The notes under the pieces: generated by a model
What the model was told of the DNA's origin: nothing
Databases searched by the model: none
What the model saw: only the letters and a program-made list of their open reading frames with translations
Position numbers and translations under genes: made by a program
Shown here: positions 4,593-63,765 of the stretch, piece after piece
Layout: each line of letters begins with the position of its first letter
How positions within the stretch are numbered: the first letter of the stretch is position 1
From: Bolinopsis microptera
Lineage: Eukaryota > Ctenophora > Tentaculata > Lobata > Bolinopsidae
DNA length: 64,000 bases
NCBI RefSeq assembly: GCF_026151205.1
Contig: NC_087083.1
Coordinates: forward strand, 6,116,460 to 6,180,459
Reading direction: 5' to 3'

Positions 4593-6065
4593 ATGACTGA
4601 TCTCAAAGATTACGGTGAGAAGGATGGCGAGGATATGGCAGCATCCGACACCCAGTGTAAGCCGACTGACAATAGGGACAAAATGAAAAAGAACATAACA
4701 GTTTTACGAGGGATAGCATTGGTGGTTGGTACAGTTATAGGAACTGGGATCTTCATCACTCCAAACTCTATCACCAGGAGAGTGAACGCTCCTGCTACAT
4801 CAATCCTGGTCTGGCTGGCAGGTGGGGTGATGGCAGGTGTCGGTGGTCTTGTCTTCTGTGAGCTGGGGACCATGATACCGGTCTCCGGGGCCGAGGTTGC
4901 ATATCTTAAAAAGATATACGGCCCTCTGCCTGGCTTTTTGTCAGTGTGGCTAATGCACTTTCTGTTAGGTGGTATGCGTCGTGCTATTGGTGTACTAGGG
5001 TTCTCTAAGTACTTCTGGACTCTATTTTACGAGAATCCAGAAGTTGAAGTTAACTGGTGGGTCTCTAAACTAATCGCTCTATCAGTCTTATACATCATAG
5101 TTGCACTCGTCACCTTCAAACCGACCTTCATACTAAAATGTATCGTGTTCTTTACTTCTTCCAAGTTTGTTGCGACGATAATTATAATAGTAGCAGGATT
5201 TGTTTATCTAGCTAAAGGACATACAGAAAACATCTCTGTGGGCTTTGAAGGGACTAACACTGATGCTAAAGAGTGGGGAGATGCATGGAATGGGGTCATT
5301 TGGTCTTATCTGGGCTGGGAACAGATTTGTATTGTCACAAGTGAAATCAGAAACCCTCAAAAAAATTTACCTATCATAGTTTTGAGTTCCGTGGCGATAG
5401 TCACAGTTTTGTATCTGTTGACAGTCATCAGCTACCACATAGTTTTGCCTCTCAGTATTATGACGCAGGATAAAGCGGTGGCCAGTGAATTCGGGTTCCA
5501 GACCATGGGAGATGCAGGGAGGATAATCCTGGCTCTTACTGTAGTGCTGTCAACTTTAGGAAACGTTCAATGTACCTTTCTTACCCAAAGCCGGTACATT
5601 CACTCCGGAAGTGTGGAAGGTCTTCTTCCTTCTTGCTTCGGCTTGGTCAGCAAACGCTTCAGAACTCCCATAGTGTCCATCCTGTATCTGACTGGAGTTA
5701 CCTCGGTGTTTGTCATAGTCGGAGGAATTGATGATCTCATCAGTGCAGCAAGTTTCACTGTGTTCCCGTTCTATGTTGCTTGCTCAGCAGGTGTTTTTGT
5801 CATGAGAAAAACACATCCTCATATCCCCCGGCCTTACAGAGTACCACTAATCTTCCCTGCTCTGTTCATTCTCTTCGGTCTTTTTGTCTTTATCACCCCC
5901 TTCTTGGGTGAAGATTGGTTGATATCTTTGATTTGGGTTCTGATCCTGCTGCTGGGAATTCCTCTTTATTATCTTATTCTGAAGAATGTGTTACGGTTGG
6001 AATTCCTTGGGAAGTGGGATGCAACTGTCACGGCACTTCTGGCGAGACTGCTGAATTGTGATTAA
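4593..6065 (+). CDS. SLC7-family amino-acid transporter, copy 1
   Basis: 490 residues with the length and layout of the LAT/b(0,+)-type light chains of the SLC7 (APC superfamily) transporters: a cytosolic N terminus of about 35 residues, then about 12 membrane segments. TM1 carries VVGTVIGTGIFITP (residues 45-57), the unwound glycine motif that contacts the substrate backbone. TM6 carries GVIWSYLGW (234-242), followed by the family signature EIRNPQKNLP (251-260). The tryptophan in TM6 lies where these proteins place an aromatic gate. The protein should exchange amino acids at the plasma membrane; the exact substrate cannot be read from sequence. No cysteine occurs between residues 90 and 182, so the cysteine that normally links light chains to an SLC3 heavy chain is absent. 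The coding region is one exon; a 5'-UTR acceptor lies at 4566, 26 bases before the ATG. Confidence 0.93.
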   Translation: MTDLKDYGEKDGEDMAASDTQCKPTDNRDKMKKNITVLRGIALVVGTVIGTGIFITPNSITRRVNAPATSILVWLAGGVMAGVGGLVFCELGTMIPVSGAEVAYLKKIYGPLPGFLSVWLMHFLLGGMRRAIGVLGFSKYFWTLFYENPEVEVNWWVSKLIALSVLYIIVALVTFKPTFILKCIVFFTSSKFVATIIIIVAGFVYLAKGHTENISVGFEGTNTDAKEWGDAWNGVIWSYLGWEQICIVTSEIRNPQKNLPIIVLSSVAIVTVLYLLTVISYHIVLPLSIMTQDKAVASEFGFQTMGDAGRIILALTVVLSTLGNVQCTFLTQSRYIHSGSVEGLLPSCFGLVSKRFRTPIVSILYLTGVTSVFVIVGGIDDLISAASFTVFPFYVACSAGVFVMRKTHPHIPRPYRVPLIFPALFILFGLFVFITPFLGEDWLISLIWVLILLLGIPLYYLILKNVLRLEFLGKWDATVTALLARLLNCD

Positions 6066-7009: not shown

Positions 7010-8056
7010 CCACCGATAATATACTGAGTACTGACTACCACTTTCCCATGATCACATCACGTCATCATCACGTGGGTTGAACCCAGTTCAACAGTTCCGT
7101 GTAATGGGACCCCACATATAATGATGAAAACACCACAGAAGTCCCTGAATTTTCAAATGTAAAGAAGAATTCTGCTAAACCGGAGTAACGCTTGGGAATA
7201 AGGCTTTGCTCTTTTTGTTCGTTAACTTATCTTTCTTCTGTAATAAAGGTTTGTTAGTTTTGGGTAATTTTAACTGAAAATGTGATTGTTTGATCCGGAA
7301 TTCTTACAGCTGACGTCATGCGGTCATTCACAACTTGATGCAGAATAAATTATTCGTTTATATTTAATGTACTGCTTTGGAGAATGGTTTTAAAATAATT
7401 ATATTCAATTTTGTGCTTTCAATTAAATGGAAGAAAAATCAGCACTTATTTGCAACATGTAGCATGTATGTATTTGCAAACTTTGTTTTAGATACCAGTC
7501 CCCTCATATAAGCATATAACAGTAAGTATAATTATAACGTAACTAGTCATGTTATTAGTATTATGCAATACTTGGTCATCATCTATACTTTCTTAAGTGA
7601 ACTCATAGGATTTTTATACTGAAAAGTTACATAGGTGCTGATATTATGAAATCAATCCAAAAATTATCTAAGTTTTGAGAATCGTCAAAATATTATACAT
7701 AACAACAGCTCTTTACATTTTACGTTAATGATCAGAGGCGAGATGTGAGATAACAATATATTAATATCGATGAAATATCGTTTAAAGTTTCAGTAATGGA
7801 TGTCATGATTTGTACTGATTTAATTAACACCTCTCTTTTTAATCTCTCCAAAAACCATAATGGTGTTAAGAGAGTAGGGTCAACACGATTTTCTACATTT
7901 ATTGCAGTCGATCTCATTTATTTGCTACATTCATTGCAGTCGATCTCATTTACCAGCTTTGCTTTACAATTATTTTAAAAATAACATGTACTTGTAGTAA
8001 CGAATATCATTTTTGAATTAAATCTGCATTGTTTTTATCGTTTCTACACTTTACAG
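7010..8056. other. Spacer and 5'-UTR intron before transporter copy 2
   Basis: AT-rich sequence with no exon recognised. A 24-bp imperfect direct repeat (TTTATTTGC/ATTGCAGTCGATCTCATTTA) is at about 7900-7951. The acceptor CACTTTACAG at 8047-8056 matches the 5'-UTR acceptor of copy 1, so the two copies share gene structure. Confidence 0.45.
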
Positions 8057-8074
8057 CTTCTGACAGCAGCTTCA

Positions 8075-9547
8075 ATGACTGATGTCAAAACCAACACTGA
8101 AACGGCAGAAGAGAAGATTGCTGGACCAACAATGGAGAGTAAACCTACCGATAATAGGGATAAGATGAAAAAGAACATAACAGTTTTGCGGGGCATAGCT
8201 CTTGTGGTTGGAATCATGATTGGCACGGGGATCTTCATCACTCCAAACTCTATCACCAGGAGAGTGAACGCTCCTGCTACATCAATCCTGGTCTGGCTGG
8301 CAGGTGGGGTGATGGCAGGTGTCGGTGGTCTTGTCTTCTGTGAGCTGGGGACCATGATACCGGTCTCCGGGGCCGAGGTTGCATATCTTAAAAAGATATA
8401 CGGCCCTCTGCCTGGCTTTTTGTCAGTTTGGCTTAAACACCTTCTGTTGGGTGGTATGCGTCGTGCTATTGGTGTACTAGGGTTCTCTAAGTACTTCTGG
8501 ACTCTATTTTACGAGAATCCAGAAGTTGAAGTTAACTGGTGGGTCTCTAAACTAGTCGCTCTATCAGTCTTATACATCATAGTTGCACTCGTCACCTTCA
8601 AACCGACCTTCATACTGAAATGTATCGTGTTTTTCACTGCTACTAAGGTCGTTGCTGCGATAATTATAATAGTAGCAGGATTTGTTTATCTAGCTAAAGG
8701 ACATACAGAAAACATCTCTGTGGGCTTTGAAGGGACTAACACTGATGCTAAAGAGTGGGGAGATGCATGGAATGGGGTCATTTGGTCTTATCTGGGCTGG
8801 GATCAGATTTGCACCGTCACAAGTGAGATCCAAAATCCTCAACGAAACATACCTATCATAGTTATGAGTTCAGTGACAATAGTCACCGTTTTGTACCTGC
8901 TGACAGTCATCAGCTATCATATAGTCTTGCCTCTGAGTATTATGACGCAGGATAAAGCGGTGGCCAGTGAATTCGGGTTCCAGACCATGGGAGATGCAGG
9001 GAAAATTATTTTAGTACTATCCGTAGTGCTGTCGGCTTTAGGAAACGTTCAATGTAACTTTCTTACCCAAAGCCGGTACATTCACTCAGGAAGTGTGGAA
9101 GGCTTTCTCCCCTCCTGCTTCGGCTTGGTCAGCAAACGCTTCAGAACTCCCATAGTGTCCATCCTGTATCTGACTGGAGTTACCTCGGTGTTTGTCATAG
9201 TCGGAGGTATTGATGATCTGATAAGTTCAGCTAGTTTTACAATGGTACCGTTTTACACTGCTTGCTCGGCTGGTGTGTTTGTCATGCGGAAAACACATCC
9301 TGATATCCCCCGGCCTTACAGAGTACCCCTAATCTTCCCTGCTCTCTTCATTCTCTTTGGGCTGTATGTGTTCATCAACCCCTTCTTGGGTGGAGATTGG
9401 TTGATATCTTTGATTTGGGTTCTGGTCCTGCTGCTGGGAATTCCTCTTTATTATCTTATTCTGAAGAACGTGTTTCGGCTGGAGTTTCTTGGGAAGTGGG
9501 ATGAAACTGCTACAGCTTTCTTTTCAAGACTGCTCAACTGTGATTAG
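8075..9547 (+). CDS. SLC7-family amino-acid transporter, copy 2
   Basis: 490 residues, the same length as copy 1 and aligned to it without gaps (offset 3,482 bp). It has the TM1 motif VVGIMIGTGIFITP, the TM6 GVIWSYLGW and the signature EIQNPQRNIP. Differences from copy 1 cluster in the N terminus, in TM5 (TATKVVAA versus TSSKFVAT), around 240-275 and in the C-terminal segments, so substrate preference or trafficking may differ. The linker cysteine for a heavy chain is missing here too. The 5'-UTR acceptor is at 8056, and the leader sequence GACAGCAGCTTCAATGACTG resembles that of copy 1. AATAAA at 9686-9691 is a likely polyA signal. Confidence 0.93.
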   Translation: MTDVKTNTETAEEKIAGPTMESKPTDNRDKMKKNITVLRGIALVVGIMIGTGIFITPNSITRRVNAPATSILVWLAGGVMAGVGGLVFCELGTMIPVSGAEVAYLKKIYGPLPGFLSVWLKHLLLGGMRRAIGVLGFSKYFWTLFYENPEVEVNWWVSKLVALSVLYIIVALVTFKPTFILKCIVFFTATKVVAAIIIIVAGFVYLAKGHTENISVGFEGTNTDAKEWGDAWNGVIWSYLGWDQICTVTSEIQNPQRNIPIIVMSSVTIVTVLYLLTVISYHIVLPLSIMTQDKAVASEFGFQTMGDAGKIILVLSVVLSALGNVQCNFLTQSRYIHSGSVEGFLPSCFGLVSKRFRTPIVSILYLTGVTSVFVIVGGIDDLISSASFTMVPFYTACSAGVFVMRKTHPDIPRPYRVPLIFPALFILFGLYVFINPFLGGDWLISLIWVLVLLLGIPLYYLILKNVFRLEFLGKWDETATAFFSRLLNCD

Positions 9548-9967: not shown

Positions 9968-12900
9968 TTACTGAAATCTCTTTCTACTTACATAATTCAT
10001 ATTCAACACTTGAAAAATTATTAAATTACAGAAAAAGGGCAAAAAGCGGCCTTTTAATTGCTGAATAGCAAACAGTAAATGTAACTTACATCTGATGGAA
10101 ATTTGAAGTGCTCTATTTTGTGCTTCGCCTTAGGACTTGGGGTTGGTGATGCCTTTGCTGCTGACACTGACACTGGCCTATCAATAACGTTGGAACCTAA
10201 AGCAGGTATAGTAGCAGGTAAAGCAGCTATAAAAATAACGAGCCGTTTGAAAGATTGACTACAAATTTTTACTCTGAAGATTTTTGAGCAATAAGGGGTT
10301 ATGAGTATGTTTGCTGTTGGTTGATGAAGTGTTCAAGATTACGTTGCAACCGTGGATTGTAAAATCTTTTAACCGATCAACAAAACTGACTTCAGTCCAG
10401 AAAGTCATGAATGTACACAATAATTTAAAACACAAGGAAACATTTTATAAAGAAAAACTTAATTACTTGATGGAGCACTGTTGGGTTTGTTGTGGTTAAA
10501 GAAGGTAAAATGTTCCCAAGATAACCTTCTGCTGTCATGGTAACCGTGACGCGGCCTCGTTGCTCCTGGACCTCTGGGGTGGAGAAGTGGATATTAAGGA
10601 AGGTTCACATATAATTACATTACCTAATATCTACATATTCATATTTTACATTAACCACCCTAGATATATGAGTATATTGTGTATGGTGGCTTAAAATGGC
10701 TTATTTAATATGTGAACGATTCGTTAAGCTAATAGTTATCCGTATGTAGTTTTAATCGCCAGCTTAATTGAATTAATACTGGCAAAATTCATATTCTGAG
10801 ATGGTACTAGAATAAATTTTGATTCATATTTTATAACTGTAACCACAAGTAACTCAAAAAAATGAATGATGATATGAATAATGCATGAAGTTACAAGAGT
10901 GTCTTTTTTTCCATAAAAGTTATGCAAAGGTTCTAAATCATAATACAAAACCATGCTGTTCAAGTATGCAAGTAATAAAAAAACACAGTTAATGTTAGGG
11001 ATAAAGTTGGGTCCTGGTTAGGATGGGCCCGATTGGGTAAGGGTTAGGTAAAGGTCCAAAATCATGTTTACTGCTTAATATTAGGTGGTGAAACGTCTGC
11101 GGAGTGGAAAATCATGTTTACTGCTTAATATTAGGGGGTGAAACGTCTGCAGAGTGGAAAAGCATGTTCAATGTTTAGTATTAGGGGGTGAAACGTCTGC
11201 ACGAGTGGAAAGGCATGTTTAATGATTCGTATTACGGGTTGAAACGTCTGCTGAGTGGAAAAGCATGTTAAAAAACCAAAAACAGCTATAAAAGTATAAA
11301 TGGGAACTCAATAAAACTGCTGGATAAGTTAAAGCAAAATAAATTCTTAAATACCTCTAAAATACCATTGAATCACTACTAAAATACATTTAAAATAGTG
11401 GATATATTGGATATAATAGTGGATATAATATTGGATATACTCACACGGTCCTGATACCGTCTCCCCTCACGTGGATATTCTTTGAAGCTTTCTTTCCAGA
11501 CCTGTCAGGGGTTCTGTTTGTTTTAAAGAAAAGTTTTTTAGAAGTGAAAGCTTTATAGTTGGGCAATCTTTTTGAAATCATATTAATGTTATATGGAACG
11601 AAATAGTTTTTAACTTTGGGCGAATAATACAGTCATCGAAAGAATATTTTCCGTCTAGAATTCGATTACAATTTGTTTTTGAATACCTTGTGCTGCGGCG
11701 ATGTGGAAGATTTCTCGAGAGTTTGGGTCGCAAATTAAATTCTTTATCGTCCACTATATTGAGATTGTCATCAGAAAATATGTCGTCTTGAAATTCTACT
11801 CTGAAACAAAAGGAATTCAATAAATAGATGGAACACTACCAGATTTAGGTCAAACATAAGTTAGCACTGTGTCATGTTAACTGAAAGAATACCAGTACTA
11901 TTTAGTCGTATTGATAGGTGACTCCTTGCTTTTGTCAAAATAATATCAGTAAATATTACATCTAATTTTCAAATGTCTAAATATGACCTGTTAGGAGTTG
12001 GTTCCAATGTCAAAATATTACCTGTTAGGAGTTGGTTCCAATGTTAAACTACTGAGGGCTTTAGTAAGCTTTTTGATGCTTCCTTTCGATTTTAATGCCT
12101 GTAAATTAGTCAATAGACTCATTTTAGTGTACGCCTTGATAGGGCATCTCAGGACAAAAATATGTTAACACTCATGATTGTAAAAATAAAACAACAAATT
12201 TTAAAAGTTGGTTTATTTAAGAATTTTCAGTTTAACTGAAATACTGAAATAGTTACTATAAATACTTGAATTCTAAAATATATTCAATCAAGACAATCAA
12301 ATTTAAATAACGTAAATTAAATGTACGACAATCAAATAAATAACGTGAATTAAATATAATAACGTACAGCAAGTTGATGGTGGTTCATTTTGGACAGCGC
12401 AACCGTATCATCTAAATGTAGGCTTCTCAACAGGGACACCGTCTCGAAATCCAGGTCATGCTTATTCGCCCACTTTCTGAAAATTATGTTTGGATTGCAA
12501 TCTGGTGATCTTAGATGTGAAGTTAACAACAATTTCTTGGATGAATTTCGTGTATGAATAAAACAGTTCAAATTTTCATGGCATAGATACTAAATTTTGT
12601 AAGATAGCTAATGTTAGGAGGTGCACTACCTACTAATATATCAGTTTCCTCAACAATTCCCTTACCTAAATGTATCAGTTTCCTCAACAATTCCCTTACC
12701 TAAATGTATCAGTTTCTTCAACAATTCCCTTACCTAAATGTATCACTTTCCTCAACAATATCCTTACCTAAATGTATCAGTTTCCTCAACAATTCCCTTA
12801 CCTAAATGTATCAGTTTCCTCAACAATATCCTTACCTAAATGTATCAGTTTCCTCATCATAGAACTGAACCTCATCATCCCACTCGTTAAGATTACTTTC

Positions 12901-15900
12901 ATTAGAGTAGAATTCCCACCAAGACACTATCTTTAGATTGTTAACGTACTCTTCTTCTCTTTTGTACCTGGGAGTCATTAGTTGTTAATAAGTAAATAAT
13001 TAGTAAATAATAAGTATATAATTAGTAAATAATTAGTAAATAATTAGTAAATAATTTGTAATTTGTAAATAATAGTATCACGAGATTTTTATTTCCCGCA
13101 GTCAAATGACGAATGACTTGATTACATTCTTATTGAATGAGGAATTATATTTTCGAATTCATAGTCAGTACCTAAATAGAGATAAAGTAAAAAACCAAAA
13201 CATATATTGTGTAAGCAACGCTCCATAAGTAATTGATTAGTAGTTTATAATTATCCGTTAAGTTATATACGCTAATTCAACTGCGTATAATGCGATTACA
13301 CTATTAATTGCACGAGGCGCAGCCGAGTGCAAATTGATACAATAATCGCACGAGGCGAAGCCGAGTTCGATTATTGCAGTTATTTCACGAGGCGCAGCCG
13401 AGTGCAATAACTGGTGTAATCGTGTAATCATATTATACATGCAGTTAGATTCGCGTATAACTCCACGCTTCTGGTGTTATAACCAGTGCATTGATTTAAT
13501 AATATAAATTTACATAATAATGATTTAATAACACACAACTAAATTTCCCACCTTGGAGTTATACATGAGTAGTTAGACAGTGTGGTGGCCTCGTCCAAAT
13601 CATTTATCCAGTCAAGGTGATCCAACAAGTCCGACTCATCACAGCTCATAGCCGCACTTCGGTCCTGCAATTAAATAACTTTAAGATTTAATTTAACTTT
13701 AATTTTTAACTTTAAGATTTCAAGCCTTATATTGTGTGTTTCCCTTCGTGTCCAAAAGCATTATATTAAATAACTTTTTTACTTGTACTATGTTATTTGC
13801 TATAAATTCTGATATTTTTATGGAAGGGAGACGGGGTAGACCATGTTTAAACTTATTAGATGTTATTAGAAAAGACTTGACTAGTAGAAATCTTGATATT
13901 AGACTTAAGAATTTGACTGATTTCGAAGACCTTAGATTTTTAGCTTTAGATAGGGAGGAGTGGAAGAAGTTAGAAGATGGTTGATGTTTTTTGTTTTCTT
14001 TTTTATGCGTTTTGATATCTATAAGGTGCCTAGGATGCTCTTTTAAAGAGATATTTCGTACTTTGAAAGATTTACTACTACTTGTACAGGCGGAATATCT
14101 GCTTTTCACTAATGTATCTGTGAATTATAATAGGTATCAATTTCACTTCAAGGTACCTGTTTTGTTTGTTGTAGCGTATTTACAGATGCAGCAAAACCCC
14201 GAATTACCGCGGTAAATTGGGGTTTTACTGTATATGTATAAAATTTGCTTTAAAGCTTTAAAGTAAATGACAATTGTGTTGAACAGTGTATTTATCAGTA
14301 AAAGTGTTCATTTTGCACAATGTTATACATTCTTGTTCAATAGATATATTGTTAACTCTTATATATTGTGTTCTTCTTGTCTAAAAACCAATACTATATC
14401 ATGTACTTACTATTCAGTTTTATAGATGTATCAAATTTAAGTAGAAAATGAAATGTCTGCATATTCATATTTCCGAAAGTATTTATTTTCATATTTCCGA
14501 AAGTATATATATATGATAGTAAGTACAATTTCAAAAATATGATTCTTAATAAGCTTTCATCAAAAAACCTTAAACCACCTACTTACATTTGTGGGGTTAC
14601 CAACTATTCTCTACTTACATTTGCGGGGTTACCAACTATTCTCTACTTATATTTGCAGGGTTACCAACTATTCTCTACTTACATTTGAGGGGTTACCAAC
14701 TAATCTCTACTTACATTTGAGAGGTTACCAACTATTCTCTACTTAAATTTGAGGGGTTACCAACTATTCTCTACTTAAATTTGAGGGGTCACCAACTATT
14801 CTCTACTTACATTTACGGGGTTACCAACTATTCTCTACTTACATTTGAGGGGTTGCCAACTATTCTCTACTTACCTTTGCGGGGTTACCAACTATTCTCT
14901 ACTTACATTTGCGGGGTTACCAACTATTCTCTACTTACATTTGAGGGGTTATCCAAGTATTCTCTACTTACATTTGAGGGGTTATCCGACTATTCTCTAC
15001 TTACATTTGAGGGGTTACCAACTATTCTCTACTTACATTTGAGGGGTTATCCAAGTATTCTCTACTTACATTTGAGGGGTTATCCAAGTATTCTCTACTT
15101 ACATTTGCGGGGTTACCAACTATTCTTTACTTACATTTGCGGGGTTACCAACTATTTCTCTACTTACATTTGAGGGGTTATCCAAGTATTCTCTACTTAC
15201 ATTTGAGGGGTTATCCAACTATTCTCTACTTACATTTGCGGGGTTACCAACTATTCTCTACTTACATTTGAGGGGTTATCCAAGTATTCTCTACTTACAT
15301 TTGAGAGGTTACCAAGTATTCTCTACTTACATTTGCGGGGTTACCAACTATTCTCTACTTACATTTGCGGGGTTACCAACTATTCTCTACTTACATTTGA
15401 GGGGTTACCAACTATTCTCTACTTATATTTGCAGGGTTACCAACTATTCTCTACTTACATTTGAGGGGTTACCAACTAATCTCTACTTACATTTGAGAGG
15501 TTACCAACTATTCTCTACTTAAATTTGAGGGGTTACCAACTATTCTCTACTTAAATTTGAGGGGTCACCAACTATTCTCTACTTACATTTACGGGGTTAC
15601 CAACTATTCTCTACTTACATTTGAGGGGTTGCCAACTATTCTTTACTTACCTTTGCGGGGTTACCAACTATTCTCTACTTACATTTGCGGGGTTACCAAC
15701 TATTCTCTACTTACATTTGAGGGGTTATCCAAGTATTCTCTACTTACATTTGAGGGGTTATCCGACTATTCTCTACTTACATTTGAGGGGTTACCAACTA
15801 TTCTCTACTTACATTTGAGGGGTTATCCAAGTATTCTCTACTTACATTTGAGGGGTTATCCAAGTATTCTCTACTTACATTTGCGGGGTTACCAACTATT

Positions 15901-17175
15901 CTTTACTTACATTTGCGGGGTTACCAACTATTTCTCTACTTGCATTTGAGGGTTATCCAAGTATTCTCTACTTACATTTGAGGGGTTATCCAACTATTCT
16001 CTACTTACATTTGCGGGGTTACCAACTATTCTCTACTTACATTTGAGGGGTTATCCAAGTATTCTCTACTTACATTTGCGGGGTTACCAACTATTCTCTA
16101 CTTACATTTGAGGGGTTACCAACTATTCTCTACTTACATTTGAGGGGTTACCAAGTATTCTCTACTTACATTTGAGGGGTTACCAAGTATTCTCTACTTA
16201 CATTTGCGGGGTTACCAACTATTCTCTACTTACATTTGCGGGGTTACCAACTATTCTCTACTTACATTTGCGGGGTTACCAACTATTCTCTTCTTACATT
16301 TGAGGGGTCACCAACTATTCTCTACTTACATTTGAGGGGTTATCCAAGTATTCTCTACTTACATTTGAGGGGTTATCCAAGTATTCTCTACTTACATTTG
16401 AGGGGTTATCCAAGTATTCTTTACTTACATTTGCGGGGTTATCCAAGTATTCTCTACACTGCTTCCCAATGAAATACGGGTACTCCTCCCCAGACGAGTT
16501 CCCACTATCCGAGCTAAACCTCCTGTTCGCAGCACTAACATTACTCTCAGTATCCCCCGCTGAGCTCCCCCTTACCGTCCCCTCCTCACTTAGAAACGTC
16601 TCCGTGCAGTTCTTCACCAGGTTCCCTACCACAGATATCCTCAGCTCCTTCTCAGGGAGTGGGGAGGTTCTGCGGGTCCTGTTGTACGTTCTCTTTACAA
16701 ACCTCCAGACTGTTACCAAGGATCTTAGTTTCAGGCCTGCTGCCGCTGCTGCTGCTGCGGGAGCTTTCTTGTTTCTCTGGGATACAGTTGGACTCTTGCT
16801 GACGGGGGAGGGAGATGGTATCTTGTTTCTCTGGGATACAGTTGGACTCTTGCTGACGGGGGAGGGAGATGGTATCTTGTTTCTCTGGGATACAGTCGGA
16901 CTCTTGCTGACGGGGGAGGGAGATGGTATCTTGTTTCTCTGGGATACAGTTGGACTCTTGCTGACGGAGGAGGGATTGCTGACGGAGGAGGGAGATGGTG
17001 TCCGGGAGCGGGTCCGATGTGGGGAGGGTGTCCTGCGAGGGAGAAGGGGACTTCGTTTAATTGAGAGAGGCGACACAGAGCCGGGTTCTGAGAGGTCCAT
17101 AGTGGTTTTAGCTTGAAGGTTTTTCATCGCCAGTGGCGGTGGTGGTGGTGGTGAGTGCTCGTCAGAATTTAACAT
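9968..17175 (-). CDS. Nine-exon gene of unknown function, Ser/Pro-rich then acidic
   Basis: Nine coding exons (16429-17175, 13552-13664, 12836-12967, 12368-12476, 12022-12098, 11687-11800, 11445-11513, 10545-10573, 10090-10226) sum to 1,527 bp, exactly 509 codons, with every splice phase agreeing. A last exon starting at 9970 would supply TAA at once. Residues 1-250 are Ser/Pro/Arg-rich with a proline run, four 18-residue repeats of the type KIPSPSPVSKSPTVSQRN, an alanine run and a Lys/Arg patch. The middle is acidic and Trp/Asp-rich (DWINDLDEA, SWWEFYSNE, NEWDDEVQFYDEE). The tail is basic and Ser/Pro-rich, ending KHKIEHFKFPSD. No membrane segment or enzyme motif is seen, so it is probably an intracellular, phosphorylated, largely disordered protein. 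I do not recognise a family. Three donors lie inside tandem repeats. Confidence 0.7.
10090..10226 (-). CDS. Exon 9 of the unknown gene
   Basis: Acceptor TTTTTATAG, open only in phase 1, reading ALPATIPALGSNVIDRPVSV to HKIEHFKFPSD, donor CAGAT|GTAAGT, phase 0 out, 137 bp. Confidence 0.65.
10545..10573 (-). CDS. Exon 8 of the unknown gene (29 bp, tentative)
   Basis: Acceptor TTCTCCACCCCAG, reading GPGATRPRH, donor CACG|GTTACC. This weak donor gives phase 1, which exon 9 needs. An alternative donor at 10525 (AGAAG|GTTATC) would leave phase 2 and break exon 9. Confidence 0.45.
10603..10731. mobile_element. Possible decayed relative of the GTTCACATA MITE family
   Basis: GTTCACATATAATTAC near 10605 and TTAATATGTGAACG near 10708 are inverted to each other and resemble the ends of the MITE at 6844. 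No clear target duplication remains. Confidence 0.3.
11060..11270. repeat. 49-bp minisatellite, about four copies
   Basis: Units start with AAAATCATGTTTACTG or close variants at about 11060, 11109, 11158 and 11208, and include GGTGAAACGTCTGC. It lies in the intron between exons 7 and 8 of the unknown gene. Confidence 0.8.
11445..11513 (-). CDS. Exon 7 of the unknown gene
   Basis: Acceptor TAAAACAAACAG, reading TPDRSGKKASKNIHVRGDGI, donor ACCGT|GTGAGT, phase 2 in and out, 69 bp. Confidence 0.6.
11687..11800 (-). CDS. Exon 6 of the unknown gene
   Basis: Acceptor CTTTTGTTTCAG, reading VEFQDDIFSDDNLNIVDDKE, donor CACAAG|GTATTC, phase 2 in and out, 114 bp. If the donor is skipped the frame reads on to a stop near 11578. 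Confidence 0.65.
11987..12054 (-). repeat. 34-bp duplication spanning the exon 5 donor
   Basis: CCTGTTAGGAGTTGGTTCCA occurs at 11987 and again at 12021. On the minus strand each copy ends in CCTAACAG|GT, so the exon edge and splice site are duplicated. Confidence 0.85.
12022..12098 (-). CDS. Exon 5 of the unknown gene
   Basis: Acceptor ACTAATTTACAG, reading ALKSKGSIKKLTKALSSLTL, donor CCTAACAG|GTAATA. Phase 0 in, phase 2 out, 77 bp. The donor and the preceding 20 bases are duplicated 34 bp further on (CCTAACAG|GTCATA). Confidence 0.65.
12368..12476 (-). CDS. Exon 4 of the unknown gene
   Basis: Acceptor CATAATTTTCAG, reading KWANKHDLDFETVSLLRSLH to MNHHQLA, donor CTTGCT|GTACGT. Phase 2 in, phase 0 out, 109 bp. 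Confidence 0.7.
12639..12856 (-). repeat. 34-bp minisatellite carrying the exon 3 donor
   Basis: Six full units and a partial one, containing TATCAGTTTCCTCAACAATT and CCTTACCTAAATG. On the minus strand each unit reads ACATTTAG|GTAAGG, the same junction that ends exon 3. Confidence 0.85.
12836..12967 (-). CDS. Exon 3 of the unknown gene
   Basis: Acceptor GACTCCCAG, reading YKREEEYVNNLKIVSWWEFY and on to ETDTF, donor TTTAG|GTAAGG. Phase 2 in and out, 132 bp. The donor is the first of a run of identical donors in the 34-bp array at 12639-12856; using a later donor would give an immediate in-frame stop (AGG TAA). Confidence 0.72.
13258..13500. mobile_element. Foldback-like element with GCACGAGGCG hairpins
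   Basis: Three hairpins of the form GCACGAGGCG..AGCCGAGTGC lie at about 13310-13415. They are bracketed by GTTATATACGC (about 13260) and GCGTATAAC (about 13454), inverted to each other. No coding. Similar hairpins recur at 34.3 and 36.4 kb. Confidence 0.5.
13552..13664 (-). CDS. Exon 2 of the unknown gene
   Basis: Acceptor TTAATTGCAG, then DRSAAMSCDESDLLDHLDW and further to a donor CCAAG|GTGGGA. Phase 0 in, phase 2 out, 113 bp. Acidic. Confidence 0.7.
13795..13984 (+). pseudogene. 3' remnant of a non-LTR retrotransposon (reverse-transcriptase ORF tail)
   Basis: The frame reads FMEGRRGRPCLNLLDVI and later ALDREEWKKL before TGA at 13982. The GRRGRP..W/L..D-x-R-x-x-W layout matches the extreme C terminus of many LINE ORF2 proteins. 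The catalytic part is absent, so this is a 5'-truncated dead copy. It lies in intron 1 of the minus-strand gene, antisense to it. Confidence 0.6.
14190..14232. mobile_element. Short palindromic MITE with AAAACCCCG ends
   Basis: CAGCAAAACCCCGAATTACC pairs with its near-perfect inverse ending GGGGTTTTACTG around a CCGCGG centre. CAGT-type ends next to TA resemble pogo/Tc1-type mini-elements. A related, less complete copy lies at 30373. Confidence 0.5.
14578..16457 (-). repeat. 32/33-bp minisatellite built from an exon-intron junction
   Basis: About 57 tandem units of the type CTACTTACATTTGAGGGGTT + ACCAACTATTCT (32 bp) or ATCCAAGTATTCT (33 bp). On the minus strand every unit reads CAAAT|GTAAGTAGAG, the junction that ends exon 1 of the unknown gene. 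Next to the exon the units are the 33-bp kind and stay in frame as EYLDNPSNVSR; deeper in, 32-bp units predominate and shift frame. A block of about 660 bp is duplicated at a spacing of 776 bp (14641 and 15417). Confidence 0.92.
16429..17175 (-). CDS. Exon 1 of the unknown gene
   Basis: ATG at 17175, then 249 codons to a donor CAAAT|GTAAGT, phase 0. It contains the proline run, the SPSPVSKSPTVSQRN repeats (about 16775-16970) and poly-Ala. It ends in CREYLDNPAN, the first unit of the downstream minisatellite. If splicing is skipped, the frame stays open to 16315, adding EYLDNPSNVSR units. Confidence 0.75.
16775..16975 (-). repeat. 54-bp in-frame coding repeat, four units
   Basis: TCTGGGATACAGTTGGACTC recurs every 54 bp. 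Read on the minus strand it encodes four copies of an 18-residue SP-rich unit within exon 1. Confidence 0.9.
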
Positions 17176-19410: not shown

Positions 19411-20354
<944 letters not shown>

Positions 20355-20414
20355 AAGTAAAGGTAAGTAAAGGTAAGTAAAGGTAAGTAAAGGTAAGTAA
20401 CGGTAAGTAAAGGC
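20355..20414 (+). repeat. 10-bp array (GTAAGTAAAG)n
   Basis: About six copies of GGTAAGTAAA, each a perfect splice-donor core on the + strand. No exon could be confirmed upstream. Confidence 0.8.
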
Positions 20415-32281: not shown

Positions 32282-32429
32282 GTAATTATTCTGGGGTCAA
32301 TTGTCGCGAAATTTAGGGTTTAGTACGACAATTGACCCCCCCCCCCCCCGACAATTGACCCCCCATGTAATTACACTGGGGTCAATTGATCGGGTTTAGT
32401 TAGGGTCAGGGTCCTGGATCAGGATCATG

Positions 32430-32580
32430 GGTAAGGGTCCTGGGTCAGGGTTAGGGTTAGGGTTAGGGTCCTGGGTCAGGGTCAGAATTAGGGTTAGGGT
32501 TAGGGTTAGGGTTATGGTTAGGGTTAGGGTTAGGGTTAGGGTTAGGGTTAGGGTTAGGGTCAGGGTCAGGGTCAGGGTCA
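32430..32580. repeat. Interstitial telomere-like (TTAGGG)n tract
   Basis: About 15 TTAGGG units with GTCAGGG and GTCCTGG variants. It is not a chromosome end, since unique sequence follows on both sides. Confidence 0.88.
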
Positions 32581-32584
32581 AGGT

Positions 32585-32664
32585 CCGGGGGGTCAATTGT
32601 CGGGGGGTCAATTGTCGGGGGGTCAATTGTCGGAGGGTCAATTGTCGGGGGGTCAATTGTCGCC
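32585..32664. repeat. Inverted array GGGGTCAATTGTCGG
   Basis: Five copies, the reverse complement of the array at 32196. Confidence 0.9.
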
Positions 32665-32941: not shown

Positions 32942-35046
32942 CAGGACACCTGCATGAACCAATGTGAGGTTAAAGATGTGATGATTTAAAGAATGGTTAT
33001 ATGCGGAAAGGGACCCCCTCTACCCTGGCCCTGTTCAACTTCGCGAGCAAAGGCCCACGTGTCACCGGCCCAGTCCCCATGTGAGTTCTACGGGCGATTT
33101 GACTGGGCGAGTCAAGTAGTACCGGCAGGAGTCCGACCCTGAGGGGTTCCCGAGCTGCATGGCGTAACGTTGCCTGCAGTGCTTTCTCACCTATAAACGT
33201 TGCGATGATATAATCAATCAAAGCAATCTACTGAAATTAAACAGAAAGTCTTAACGGGTTATAAACTTAAAAAGCAACAACAGGACTATAGAGGTGTCAT
33301 TCAATACAGCAACTGACAACAAAGCAAGGAAGTTTAGTGAAATCATTTAAAATGGCTGATTCAGAAAAGCCAACAGACCAATTTGTGGGTAATTTTGATA
33401 AATGCAGTAATTTTTCAGCCAAAGCTACGAGTCTAGAATAACTGTCTATAACTCTCAGTGTCAAATCAAAGCATGTCAATTGTCAAACCATGCTTAATAT
33501 GATATTGATAATATATACATAGTGATATATAGTATGTGATATATAGTATGTGATACAGGTTATCGGAAGTTATTTGACCGAACATTGCGTGAACGGACAT
33601 AATTTTGAACGGACATTAAAATGAACGCTCGGAGGCAATCAGTTAATGTATTTAAGTTAACTACCGATTCTCAGACTTTATTTCAACGAACATTAAAATG
33701 AACGCTAGGGCCTCCAGCGTCCAATTAATCTCCGTTAAATAAAATCCGATGAGATTGTGGTATTTGATATATACTTATATAGATTGTGATATATAGCCAA
33801 GAAACCAGCAGCAGCTGTATACAAAGGGTTGTAATTCGCATACTTGTTAATAGCGACCATTTGGATGAAGTTGTTGTGCGGACGTTAACTATAGAATATA
33901 GTTGGGTTTTTTCCTTGCCGAGGCAAAGTGTTGTACAAATGTACCATGTGAAGTGTTGACTGGGCCTGTAGTTCACGTTTGACTGTTAAGTGATGTGTAT
34001 TTGATATTTTCACAGTCTACTTTGTCAAGGAAATGTGTTGACTGGGGTGAAGTTACCTGGTTTATACCTGGTAACCAGGTAACTTCACCTCTCACAACAT
34101 CATAATAACTAAGTTAACAGACCAGCCAATTCAGAATTAATATGGAAATGTGGTAATAAATAATATTAAATAAATAATTTATAATGATAATATTAATATA
34201 TCCTGGTTTCAGCGTGTTTAATTTGCGTTTCATTGCTTGGTGAGCACGAGCAAAGGAAATACATTTAAAATGTTATAAAGTTATAAAAACACACATAACC
34301 CCGGCATGCGCAGGGATTATATTTCAATTTTTCCCGCGACGCGCGGGAAAAGTTTATAATAATTTCGAGTGCGAAGCACGAGGGATTATTATGAAAATAA
34401 CCCCGACGTGCTTTAGCACGAGGGGTTATTTTAATATAACTTAAGCGTGCCGGTGTTATGTGTTATAAACCCCTCCGGGTTAGTGCTAGGACCAACAAAT
34501 TTGACATTTTACTCTTAAATATAGCTATATGATTATGAGATCATTATGGAAAATATGAAATGGAATTGGGGACTACCAAATAAATACAACTAAGGTACTA
34601 TGACTTTTGAAATTGGCGTTATATCTAAACATTATTCCTCAGTCAGAACGTTGAATGAATATGAATATCGATAAGGGGCGTCGAGTTAAGCGTGGCAAGT
34701 AATAAAAGCTAATAATGATATCGTGTCATGAAGTTTATCAAAGTAGACGACTATAATACATGGCTTATATCAAACACGACAAAATTAACCGAACCGGACA
34801 AAATCAAATGTAACCGTCGAGACAAGTTTTGGAACTGGTCCAATTAATGTAAGAGTTTAAGTAATGTAAGCAGTGTGCACTGTGCTGGAGTTTTGCCAGC
34901 GCCTGCAATTAGACCGATACGTAGATCGAGTGTATTTATAGTTCTTACGTTAAGCCATAGCCTGCCATAGGTCACGTGACATTTTTTACCAATGCGCGTC
35001 GTAGTAGTTAGTCACGTGATACACGTCATCAAAACACGTGACAGTA
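32942..35046. repeat. 2,105-bp tandem duplication, copy 1
   Basis: Starts at CAGGACACCTGCATGAACC and ends at ACACGTGACAGTA. It is followed head-to-tail by an apparently identical copy. The unit contains a GC-rich 220-bp block (32997-33221; its minus-strand 74-codon frame is of unknown meaning), a 17-bp-stem hairpin, and a foldback block with GGCATGCGCAGG and CCCGCGACGCGCGGG words. Confidence 0.9.
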
Positions 35047-37151
35047 CAGGACACCTGCATGAACCAATGTGAGGTTAAAGATGTGATGATTTAAAGAATG
35101 GTTATATGCGGAAAGGGACCCCCTCTACCCTGGCCCTGTTCAACTTCGCGAGCAAAGGCCCACGTGTCACCGGCCCAGTCCCCATGTGAGTTCTACGGGC
35201 GATTTGACTGGGCGAGTCAAGTAGTACCGGCAGGAGTCCGACCCTGAGGGGTTCCCGAGCTGCATGGCGTAACGTTGCCTGCAGTGCTTTCTCACCTATA
35301 AACGTTGCGATGATATAATCAATCAAAGCAATCTACTGAAATTAAACAGAAAGTCTTAACGGGTTATAAACTTAAAAAGCAACAACAGGACTATAGAGGT
35401 GTCATTCAATACAGCAACTGACAACAAAGCAAGGAAGTTTAGTGAAATCATTTAAAATGGCTGATTCAGAAAAGCCAACAGACCAATTTGTGGGTAATTT
35501 TGATAAATGCAGTAATTTTTCAGCCAAAGCTACGAGTCTAGAATAACTGTCTATAACTCTCAGTGTCAAATCAAAGCATGTCAATTGTCAAACCATGCTT
35601 AATATGATATTGATAATATATACATAGTGATATATAGTATGTGATATATAGTATGTGATACAGGTTATCGGAAGTTATTTGACCGAACATTGCGTGAACG
35701 GACATAATTTTGAACGGACATTAAAATGAACGCTCGGAGGCAATCAGTTAATGTATTTAAGTTAACTACCGATTCTCAGACTTTATTTCAACGAACATTA
35801 AAATGAACGCTAGGGCCTCCAGCGTCCAATTAATCTCCGTTAAATAAAATCCGATGAGATTGTGGTATTTGATATATACTTATATAGATTGTGATATATA
35901 GCCAAGAAACCAGCAGCAGCTGTATACAAAGGGTTGTAATTCGCATACTTGTTAATAGCGACCATTTGGATGAAGTTGTTGTGCGGACGTTAACTATAGA
36001 ATATAGTTGGGTTTTTTCCTTGCCGAGGCAAAGTGTTGTACAAATGTACCATGTGAAGTGTTGACTGGGCCTGTAGTTCACGTTTGACTGTTAAGTGATG
36101 TGTATTTGATATTTTCACAGTCTACTTTGTCAAGGAAATGTGTTGACTGGGGTGAAGTTACCTGGTTTATACCTGGTAACCAGGTAACTTCACCTCTCAC
36201 AACATCATAATAACTAAGTTAACAGACCAGCCAATTCAGAATTAATATGGAAATGTGGTAATAAATAATATTAAATAAATAATTTATAATGATAATATTA
36301 ATATATCCTGGTTTCAGCGTGTTTAATTTGCGTTTCATTGCTTGGTGAGCACGAGCAAAGGAAATACATTTAAAATGTTATAAAGTTATAAAAACACACA
36401 TAACCCCGGCATGCGCAGGGATTATATTTCAATTTTTCCCGCGACGCGCGGGAAAAGTTTATAATAATTTCGAGTGCGAAGCACGAGGGATTATTATGAA
36501 AATAACCCCGACGTGCTTTAGCACGAGGGGTTATTTTAATATAACTTAAGCGTGCCGGTGTTATGTGTTATAAACCCCTCCGGGTTAGTGCTAGGACCAA
36601 CAAATTTGACATTTTACTCTTAAATATAGCTATATGATTATGAGATCATTATGGAAAATATGAAATGGAATTGGGGACTACCAAATAAATACAACTAAGG
36701 TACTATGACTTTTGAAATTGGCGTTATATCTAAACATTATTCCTCAGTCAGAACGTTGAATGAATATGAATATCGATAAGGGGCGTCGAGTTAAGCGTGG
36801 CAAGTAATAAAAGCTAATAATGATATCGTGTCATGAAGTTTATCAAAGTAGACGACTATAATACATGGCTTATATCAAACACGACAAAATTAACCGAACC
36901 GGACAAAATCAAATGTAACCGTCGAGACAAGTTTTGGAACTGGTCCAATTAATGTAAGAGTTTAAGTAATGTAAGCAGTGTGCACTGTGCTGGAGTTTTG
37001 CCAGCGCCTGCAATTAGACCGATACGTAGATCGAGTGTATTTATAGTTCTTACGTTAAGCCATAGCCTGCCATAGGTCACGTGACATTTTTTACCAATGC
37101 GCGTCGTAGTAGTTAGTCACGTGATACACGTCATCAAAACACGTGACAGTA
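35047..37151. repeat. 2,105-bp tandem duplication, copy 2
   Basis: I found no difference from copy 1 in the stretches compared. It ends at 37151, after which sequence diverges (CGCGGTTGAA). Confidence 0.9.
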
Positions 37152-42749: not shown

Positions 42750-43497
<748 letters not shown>

Positions 43498-62700: not shown

Positions 62701-63765
62701 CGTTTCAAAACAAATTGTATTATCCCAATTTCCTCACGTTTAGGATCGGATGAAAATATAAATCTTAAATCGTGTCTTACAAGGCTAGTTCTTTGAATTA
62801 TGCTTTGGAAGCGTTCTCTTTTGAAGGTGAAAGTGGTTTCGGTTATATACATTTTTATTTGTTTGTATGCGTGTTTGTTAGTTTGTTTGTATGCGTGTTT
62901 GTTAGTTCGTTAATTTGGTTGTATGTTTAAGAGTCTTACCTCGGTAAGAGTATTTTGTTGGTCCAATTCTACCGCTTCCTTTGGGGGTTTTGTGGTCTTT
63001 TTAGCGCCCCGCCCCTTTTCTTTAATATCTGGCTTTTTTGCTTCCTCTTGAATGATGGTGCTTTGTGTCTTGGCGAATAATCCTGAAATAAATCTAGGAA
63101 ATAAATTTAATCCACTGTTTTCTGACACTCACAGCATAACATTTATTTATTTTTAATAGTAATAACTTAATACTTAATGTAATTAGTTAGATAATTAATT
63201 AACTCCCAACTTGACAGTAATATATTACACTTATATATAAGTGTAATGTCCGGATAATACTAGTGAAACAACAATTACGCTCCCACTAAATCGCTCGCCC
63301 AAATTTTAGGAAATTTCTTGTGAAAAGGCCCTGAGGGCATCGTGATAGTCATCTAATTCGGTGTATACCGAATCACCCCCCATGCAGACGTAAGGTAAAA
63401 ATGCTTCCCTGAAGAGTTAAGGGCAAAAAACCGTTTTCTTCACGTGACAGGCTAATAAAACATGAATTCGATTGTTTAGGGCTCGGGTTAGGGTTAGGGT
63501 TGTGGTAAGGGTTATGGATAGCTTCAGGGTTATGGTTAGGGTTAGGGTTGGGATTAGAGTTTTTGTAAAACCGTTTTGTACGGCTGCAAAACCATAAAAA
63601 CCAAAGTCACGTGAAATTTTTGGGCGAGCGAATTAGTAAAAGCCGTAATGTCCGGATTATATTATTGAAACTCAAACAACAATTACCTTGTTTGTAGACT
63701 TCGTGCATGTCAGGGTTTGCTTTAAAGAAGGTAGCTCGCATTGCTAGAGCCAATAGATGGTACAC
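59688..63765 (-). CDS. TPR-containing protein gene, 3' part
   Basis: Minus-strand exons 63687-63765, 62940-63082, 62438-62531, 61915-62102 and 60568-60663 join in matching phases (1, 0, 1, 0). The first reads VYHLLALAMRATFFKANPDM; the second is a Lys/Pro-rich linker; the third reads PPRLVTLEQVIDILSTA. The fourth, REAVFDLAETLWLSGERMKA then NKAHIRLAHAFLDTGEL, has the W/L-G-A-A spacing of tetratricopeptide repeats. TPR proteins act as scaffolds; large ciliary examples have similar linkers, but I cannot assign an orthologue. The gene continues beyond the window at its 5' end. Its 3' end is uncertain: exon 60568-60663 ends in TAA, or splices on to 59750. Introns contain LINE remnants, CACGTG arrays and telomere-like sequence. 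Confidence 0.6.
59701..59808 (-). repeat. 50-bp duplication over a possible acceptor
   Basis: GGCTCTCCAGCAAGTATAGA through ACACTGTCTATAAC occurs twice in tandem. Confidence 0.85.
59880..59958. repeat. 21-bp array GGTGTTATCACGTGACATTGA
   Basis: Four units, each with TCACGTGA; related words recur at 61830-61900. Confidence 0.9.
60438..60560. repeat. CACGTGATCTACGTGATCTAC cluster
   Basis: Irregular repeat of CACGTGATCTAC and CTACGTGATC. Confidence 0.75.
60568..60663 (-). CDS. TPR gene, late exon
   Basis: Acceptor CACGTTCTTCAG, reading NAAYWVGVSIKYETEYADGL to TRSVD, then TAA (60568-60570). It may instead end nine bases earlier at AGT|GTAGAT and splice to 59750. Confidence 0.5.
   Translation of the reverse strand, partial: NAAYWVGVSIKYETEYADGLRQHMVFTRSVD
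60670..60835. repeat. GTGTTAAAATGTGTTGAAAT degenerate array
   Basis: About 15 units of 9-12 bp just upstream of the acceptor of exon 60568-60663, giving that intron a C/A/T-rich end on the minus strand. Confidence 0.8.
60840..61489. other. Intron DNA of the TPR gene
   Basis: A duplicated AAACATCATAGTTTTGTGATAAC block at about 61076 and 61188. No exon seen. Confidence 0.35.
61493..61830 (-). pseudogene. Non-LTR retrotransposon remnant (C-terminal part of ORF2)
   Basis: The minus-strand frame reads TVTQFLTGHCELNYHLNKLK then KTCPHCLMEETMNHFIGQCP. The TGH..L..HL stretch followed by C-x2-C...H-x4-C is the usual end of RNase H/zinc-knuckle-bearing LINE polyproteins. 5'-truncated, in an intron of the TPR gene and in the same orientation. 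Confidence 0.65.
61915..62102 (-). CDS. TPR gene exon with tetratricopeptide repeats
   Basis: Acceptor TTTCCACCCACAG, reading KLSRGANREAVFDLAETLWL onward, donor CTCTG|GTAAAT, phase 1 in and 0 out, 188 bp. Two TPR helices are recognisable. Confidence 0.72.
62181..62236 (-). repeat. Duplicate of an exon start with its acceptor
   Basis: Fifty-odd bases matching 62051-62107, including CCCACAG and the first ~45 bases of the TPR exon, separated from the original by GTGTTAAAATGTG repeats. Confidence 0.85.
62438..62531 (-). CDS. TPR gene exon with a non-canonical GC donor
   Basis: Acceptor AATCCAATAG, reading LELQEQAASERPKEPPRLVT to DILSTA. The only donor giving the needed phase 1 is GCAG|GCATAA. 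No GT in the right phase precedes the stop that follows. Confidence 0.55.
62940..63082 (-). CDS. TPR gene exon, charged linker
   Basis: Acceptor GATTTATTTCAG, reading LFAKTQSTIIQEEAKKPDIK to QQNTLTE, donor CCGAG|GTAAGA, phase 1 in and 0 out, 143 bp. Confidence 0.65.
63484..63556. repeat. Degenerate telomere-like TTAGGG tract
   Basis: GGGTTAGGGTTAGGGTTGTG and variants, about 70 bp, in the first visible intron of the TPR gene. Confidence 0.8.
63687..63765 (-). CDS. TPR gene, first visible exon
   Basis: Acceptor AACTACCACAG, reading VYHLLALAMRATFFKANPDM and HEVYKQ, donor CAAG|GTAATT, phase 0 in and 1 out, 79 bp. Confidence 0.65.

Follow-up and report, generated by a model that had tools for sequence, protein, structure and literature searches.

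The stretch analysed here (the window) is 64,000 nucleotides from the ctenophore Bolinopsis microptera (RefSeq assembly GCF_026151205.1, contig NC_087083.1, positions 6,116,460 to 6,180,459, forward strand). Its minus strand carries a predicted gene, from 17175 to 10090, whose first exon ends inside a minisatellite with dozens of near-identical splice donors. The array, the open gene model, its frames and the recurrence of such arrays at other loci can be read directly from the sequence; they suggest a junction-spanning tandem duplication that has grown as intron. The features of the gene are, in window positions and with a slash marking the end of an exon:

16429 to 17175, minus strand: exon 1, 747 nt, ATG start, ending AAT/gtaagtaa within the first array unit (open frame and gene model)
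16767 to 16975, minus strand: in-frame coding repeat in exon 1, 54 bp x 3.9, an 18-residue unit (Tandem Repeats Finder, TRF, and translation)
14579 to 16457, minus strand: donor-straddling minisatellite that takes in the last 29 nt of exon 1 and the head of the intron, with 58 units of 32/33 bp and GTAAGT in 50 of them (TRF and unit split)
16330 to 16429, minus strand: frame-compatible donors 1 to 4, last exon bases 16429, 16396, 16363 and 16330 (frame test of every donor)
13552 to 13664, minus strand: exon 2, 113 nt, acceptor ttaattgcag, donor AAG/gtgggaaa (gene model)
12836 to 12967, minus strand: exon 3, whose end ATTTAG/gtaagg falls in the second junction repeat (gene model)
12635 to 12856, minus strand: second donor-straddling repeat, 34 bp x 6.5 (TRF, gene model, frame test)
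12368 to 12476, minus strand: exon 4 (gene model)
12022 to 12098, minus strand: exon 5, whose end CTAACAG/gtaatatt falls in the third junction repeat (gene model)
11968 to 12048, minus strand: third donor-straddling repeat, 34 bp x 2.4 (TRF, gene model, frame test)
11687 to 11800, minus strand: exon 6 (gene model; not found by the exon finder)
11445 to 11501, minus strand: exon 7 (gene model; not found by the exon finder)
10467 to 10573, minus strand: exon 8 (gene model)
10090 to 10226, minus strand: exon 9, the last modelled, donor GAT/gtaagtta (gene model)

Because exon 9 ends in a donor, the gene probably extends beyond it. At the border of exon 1 and intron 1, the exon ends at 16429 with the G of the GT at 16428, and exon 2 follows in frame from 13664; the donor is in phase 0 and, as the original prediction had held, this phase fits exon 2. 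The donor scores 6.9 on a generic donor matrix made for this analysis, and 85% of 105 predicted donors score no higher. Searched against the genome, a 101-residue part of exon 1 matches only itself, and so does exon 2 when extended by a few residues. The model was built from sequence only, and neither a Pfam search with the 531-residue protein nor a PDB search with exons 2 to 7 gave a match, so one could suppose that 16429 is no real exon end and that the array is an untranscribed satellite. That would, however, leave eight out of eight junctions phase-consistent and a frame of 531 codons unbroken by any stop across nine exons. Each exon is open in its modelled frame; exons 7 and 8 have a second open frame as well, whereas exons 1 to 6 and 9 have no other. 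Also, a home-made exon finder, which was partly trained on these exons and disregards coding score within repeats, recovers seven of the nine, with exons 6 and 7 missed and one probably false exon added. We find a wrong gene model barely credible. In intron 1, on the plus strand, there is in addition a short frame (MEGRRGRPCLNLLDVIRKDL..., window 13820-13984); it has no match in Pfam, and resembles the 3' end of a non-LTR retrotransposon.

The tandem array at 14579-16457 is far beyond chance. TRF reports a period of 32, 58.1 copies, 93% matches and a score of 3081. On the minus strand the array divides into 58 units with 24 distinct sequences; 39 of these units measure 32 bp and the other 19 measure 33 bp. 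All four units adjoining exon 1 are 33 bp long. There is also a higher-order repeat of 24 units within the array, with 18 of 34 unit pairs identical at a 24-unit shift. A genome-wide search with the 22-bp core, without mismatches, finds 21 occurrences, every one inside this array. The period lies in the minisatellite range, and the array begins within the exon: the leading 29 nt of its first unit (GTAGAGAATAC...) belong to exon 1 in the gene model, and the array continues into the intron. The proposal that the array derives from an exon-intron junction is supported, the first unit being made of exon 1 tail and intron head. The accompanying statement that each unit carries CAAAT/GTAAGTAGAG was somewhat too strong. 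The exact 15-mer CAAATGTAAGTAGAG is present in 42 units, GTAAGT on the minus strand in 50 of the 58 and GTAAGA in one, but seven have lost the GT (G31 is changed in six and T32 in one). The donor columns (G31 kept in 52 of 58 units, T32 in 57 of 58) are conserved no better than other columns of the unit, an intronic-like drift.

Both ends of the array carry the word GTAG, in GTAGAG on the exon side and in GTAAGTAGGTGG on the distal side, where the last donor passes into unique intron. This arrangement would suit a duplication between short identical words: a segment of 29 exon and 4 intron nucleotides (33 bp), lying between one GTAG in the exon and another just past the donor, may have been duplicated in tandem. 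The 33-bp form beside the exon would be the older one, with the 32-bp form produced by a one-base deletion (GGATAACC to GGTAACC), and expansion to 58 units would have included a large duplication of approximately 24 units.

Tandem duplication could also have created the intron itself. The tandem genomic duplication model of intron gain is said to go back to Rogers in 1989, and on such a view a once-coding tandem repeat in the exon would be the source of both the donor and the acceptor of a new intron. Donors are indeed present in the repeat, and the parts of two reports relevant here describe the mechanism in other organisms, in potato RdRp (PMC4974935) and in fission yeast SPOG_01682 and SOCG_00815 (PMC3629103); these cases resemble ours in that a tandem duplication surrounds cryptic or real splice signals and the intron spans several repeat units. 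They differ in that here an existing intron has apparently been enlarged at its donor, which makes a new intron unnecessary. Specifically, the array ends at 14579, and the exon 2 acceptor (13664) is a further 0.9 kb away, beyond the repeat; the passage of the distal end into unique sequence is what is expected of a pre-existing intron. We regard the birth of the intron from the array as very improbable.

Whether the array can lengthen the protein was examined by a frame test, in which exon 1 was joined to exon 2 from every GT site matching a loosely defined donor, 53 in all. Donors 1 to 4 (16429, 16396, 16363 and 16330) are in phase 0 without a stop, and add 0, 11, 22 and 33 residues, respectively. 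The remaining 49 GT sites, including 47 of the 51 GTAAG donors, run into a stop at codon 287. The original prediction had the array act as a length-variable coding switch, in which splicing from the nth donor gives a protein with n extra units. Its observation that the 33-bp units beside the exon keep the frame was accurate, and the predicted proteins would follow from donors 1 to 4, but not from the other 47 GTAAG donors. The coding-switch reading of the array is thus mostly wrong. A coding array with a variable number of tandem repeats would stay open throughout, with a period divisible by three; here 39 of 58 units are 32 bp long and codon 287 is a stop. A coding switch with dozens of isoforms was considered and is rejected on the frame test together with the comparison arrays described below.

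Because a full-length frame follows from donors 1 to 4 only, the exon-proximal donor or one of the first few would most likely be the one used. On balance we consider it probable that a junction-spanning tandem duplication has expanded as intron, with splicing at or near the exon-proximal donor; all sequence downstream of the used donor would then be removed as intron, and the array would be tolerated as a by-product of a genome unusually rich in minisatellites. The duplication mechanism, the choice of donor, the tolerance of the array and the transcription of the gene model are what we infer here. A few isoforms longer by 11, 22 or 33 residues may leak, and use of later donors may give unproductive transcripts with a premature stop.

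A reduced form of the switch would have donors 1 to 4 used in varying shares, with 0 to 3 extra 11-residue units, as in human 6-16/IFI6 (G1P3), whose minisatellite was reportedly described by Turri, Cuin and Porter in 1995 (Nucleic Acids Res 23:1854). In both genes a minisatellite with donor-bearing units lies across an exon-intron junction. With its 12-bp unit the human array stays in frame, whereas the 32/33-bp units found here keep the frame for the first four donors only. That two downstream repeat units act as splice donors in the human gene is stated in passages of PMC4526556, one of several papers in which Turri et al. (1995) is cited (also PMC3618361, PMC2572611 and PMC2915984). The precedent, and four open, in-frame donors with near-identical sequences, speak for such a switch. 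By the same test, however, only 4 of 51 GTAAG donors qualify, and in the two other 34-bp junction repeats of this gene, as in five at other loci, the first donor alone is allowed. We think a reduced switch unlikely.

These seven comparison arrays, the two in the same gene and those at loci L019, L027, L031, L033 and L036, are all donor-straddling repeats. The largest (L019:2862-7109) has a spacing of 35 bp and 117 GTAAGT donors. L027:5203-5684 has a spacing of 42 bp with nine GTAAGT and two GTAATT donors, L033:1-541 a spacing of 65 bp with seven GTAAGT donors, and L036 a spacing of 36 bp with two donors up to the end of the examined stretch. L031:1-445, with a spacing of 13/22 bp and 25 loosely defined GT sites, is a borderline case that overlaps its exon by only about 6 nt. 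The arrays at L031 and L033 turned up by chance in the flanks of an unselected sample from C1 (see below). In the same gene, one of seven GT sites is frame-compatible at 12635-12856 and one of three at 11968-12048; elsewhere the numbers are 1/117 (L019), 1/11 (L027), 1/7 (L033), 1/25 (L031) and 1/2 (L036). Each time it is the first donor, because a stop or a change of phase excludes every later one, and the seven arrays thus give no sign of selection for in-frame units. Spacings are generally not multiples of three, in contrast to the 54-bp coding repeat of exon 1. Of the exons at the five loci beyond the window, two are supported by Pfam, through LMF1_C (L033, 2.3e-28) and TIL (L031, 2e-07). 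Repeats that apparently straddle acceptors also exist, at L027:4089-4273 and, judged by eye, L029:97-211, with a unit made of intron end and exon head. The window itself holds one further tiny donor-like array with no clear adjoining exon (20353-20413, plus strand, GTAAGTAAAG x 6.1 by TRF).

Do minisatellites prefer donors, or are junctions merely caught by them? In a 244-kb sample, made up of the window and L011-L028, minisatellites occupy 39,207 bases, or about 16%, and at this density an array will frequently cover a junction by chance. The exon finder predicts 184 exons in the sample and 16 in a reversed control. Eight repeats straddle one of the 174 predicted donors, compared with a mean of 4.7 when positions are shifted (at least eight in 48 of 500 shifts), while two straddle one of the 181 predicted acceptors, compared with a mean of 5.0 (at least two in 483 of 500 shifts). 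Three of the eight come from the gene under study, and those at L018, L024 and L027:57-650 are doubtful. Stricter settings give 7 donor-straddling repeats against 3.9 (49/500), and looser ones 9 against 7.7 (176/500). A first scan by codon score had low power and missed repeats already found by eye. Counted once per array, GTAAGT occurs in 4 arrays of the sample where 2.8 are expected. We also judged by eye the 0.7-kb upstream flanks of the first eight GTAAGT arrays listed for C1, chosen without selection. One straddles a donor (L036), two start approximately 5 and 20 nt past one (L029 and L032), two lie near an acceptor on the opposite strand (L030 and L033:704-761), and three are without a call (L031, L034 and L035). 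The only exon in this sample with a Pfam match of its own, besides LMF1_C in L033, is beside L029 (Pkinase, 3.1e-12). The evidence for a donor preference is thus mixed and its support weak: donor-straddling arrays recur, and that they are attracted to donors is a further claim than the evidence safely carries.

Several observations weigh against splicing at the first donor of a passively tolerated array. Triples of GTAAGT at minisatellite spacing, counted as pattern matches and not as arrays, number 16,393 genome-wide as compared with 3,050 for the reversed hexamer TGAATG, although as single words in the 244-kb sample the two are about equally frequent (281 and 286 per Mb and strand). GTAAGT also ranks third among 90 letter permutations in that sample (5 arrays versus a mean of 1.26), where two of the five arrays lie in the window, itself chosen for the finding. 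This excess and this rank hint at something beyond passive tolerance. Pfam gives nothing above its cut-offs for the other three of these five loci: the L019 exon matches EGF models only below them (best E 0.024), and searches with the L027 and L036 exons found no match. In its final runs the exon finder set the end of exon 1 at donor 4 (16330) and not at donor 1. In vertebrates, moreover, splicing favours the last, intron-proximal member of a set of identical donors when every one of them is occupied, and such a choice here, if true, would spoil the protein.

The genome-wide excess would be understandable if the array were kept for its many U1 sites near the 5' end of a long intron, as donor redundancy or as a shield of the transcript from premature cleavage. 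The acceptor-like TTTCAG gives 5,407 triples at 606 single copies per Mb and strand, which per single copy is below GTAAGT and about equal to TGAATG. At the level of arrays, however, the excess is small, approximately twofold among the matches listed (8 GTAAGT clusters in 2.585 Mb of C1 and 5 TGAATG clusters in 3.744 Mb; the 16 listed for TTTCAG in 4.596 Mb include some chance triples). The loss of GT from seven of 58 units, and the lack of special conservation in the donor columns, also argue against upkeep. A benefit from U1 sites is in our view quite improbable.

Returning to the junction-spanning duplication, it is conceivable, if rather doubtful, that the spliceosome of this animal picks the exon-proximal donor despite dozens to 117 near-identical followers, and that such arrays are a recurrent, selectively permitted class. 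In the main reading, use of the exon-proximal donor, or here of one among the first four, is derived from the frames, since the protein would be lost otherwise. Such a choice is opposed to the intron-proximal preference mentioned above, and this conflict is the point of interest. If the first donor is truly used, the arrays form a naturally occurring set of tandem, near-identical 5' splice sites in 2 to 117 copies, in which all donors past the first (here past the first four) would break the protein. The set then bears on what selects a 5' splice site at equal strength, whether the order of transcription, proximity to the exon or chance, and illustrates how junction-spanning duplications could enlarge introns while leaving the protein unchanged.

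Arrangements of this kind are already known, from IFI6, from human duplicated genes and from the intron-gain cases. Passages of a study of human segmental-duplication genes (PMC2812944) describe variable internal tandem repeats at exon-intron boundaries, with a mean of 30 bp, that alter splicing, and count 27 intron modifications. The likeness lies in minisatellites of about 30 bp at such boundaries; as far as those passages go, the human repeats belong to paralogs, have a mean of about four copies and are supported by transcripts, whereas here 2 to 117 donors are seen in sequence alone, in a minisatellite-rich genome. A literature search on ctenophore intronic minisatellite tandem repeats, with all terms required jointly, returned nothing relevant.

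Among the minisatellites, two further patterns may be noted. The GTAAGT matches listed for C1:1-2585000 are all on the plus strand, while the totals are nearly equal by strand (8,028 and 8,365), which is either chance or an effect of the listing. Minisatellites of the 244-kb sample are enriched in GTAAC/GTTAC, ATGGTA, GGTAAC and similar words (GTAAC in 27 of 180 arrays, 9.6 expected), as if many arrays stemmed from one palindromic motif, GTTACCATGGTAAC, which is a guess.

Elsewhere in the window, two adjacent long open frames on the plus strand (4593-6062 and 7985-9544) encode amino acid permeases (Pfam AA_permease_2, 5.6e-53 and 1.3e-51) and resemble an intronless tandem gene pair. Two tandem repeats recur 2105 bp apart (33511-34196 and 35616-36301, TRF), suggesting a recent 2.1-kb duplication. 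TRF also finds interior telomere-like GGGTTA/TTAGGG runs (32399-32589 and 63476-63561) and very long simple repeats, with CT x 252.5 at 100% matches (19413-19917) and a GT repeat 745 bp long at 99% (42751-43495).
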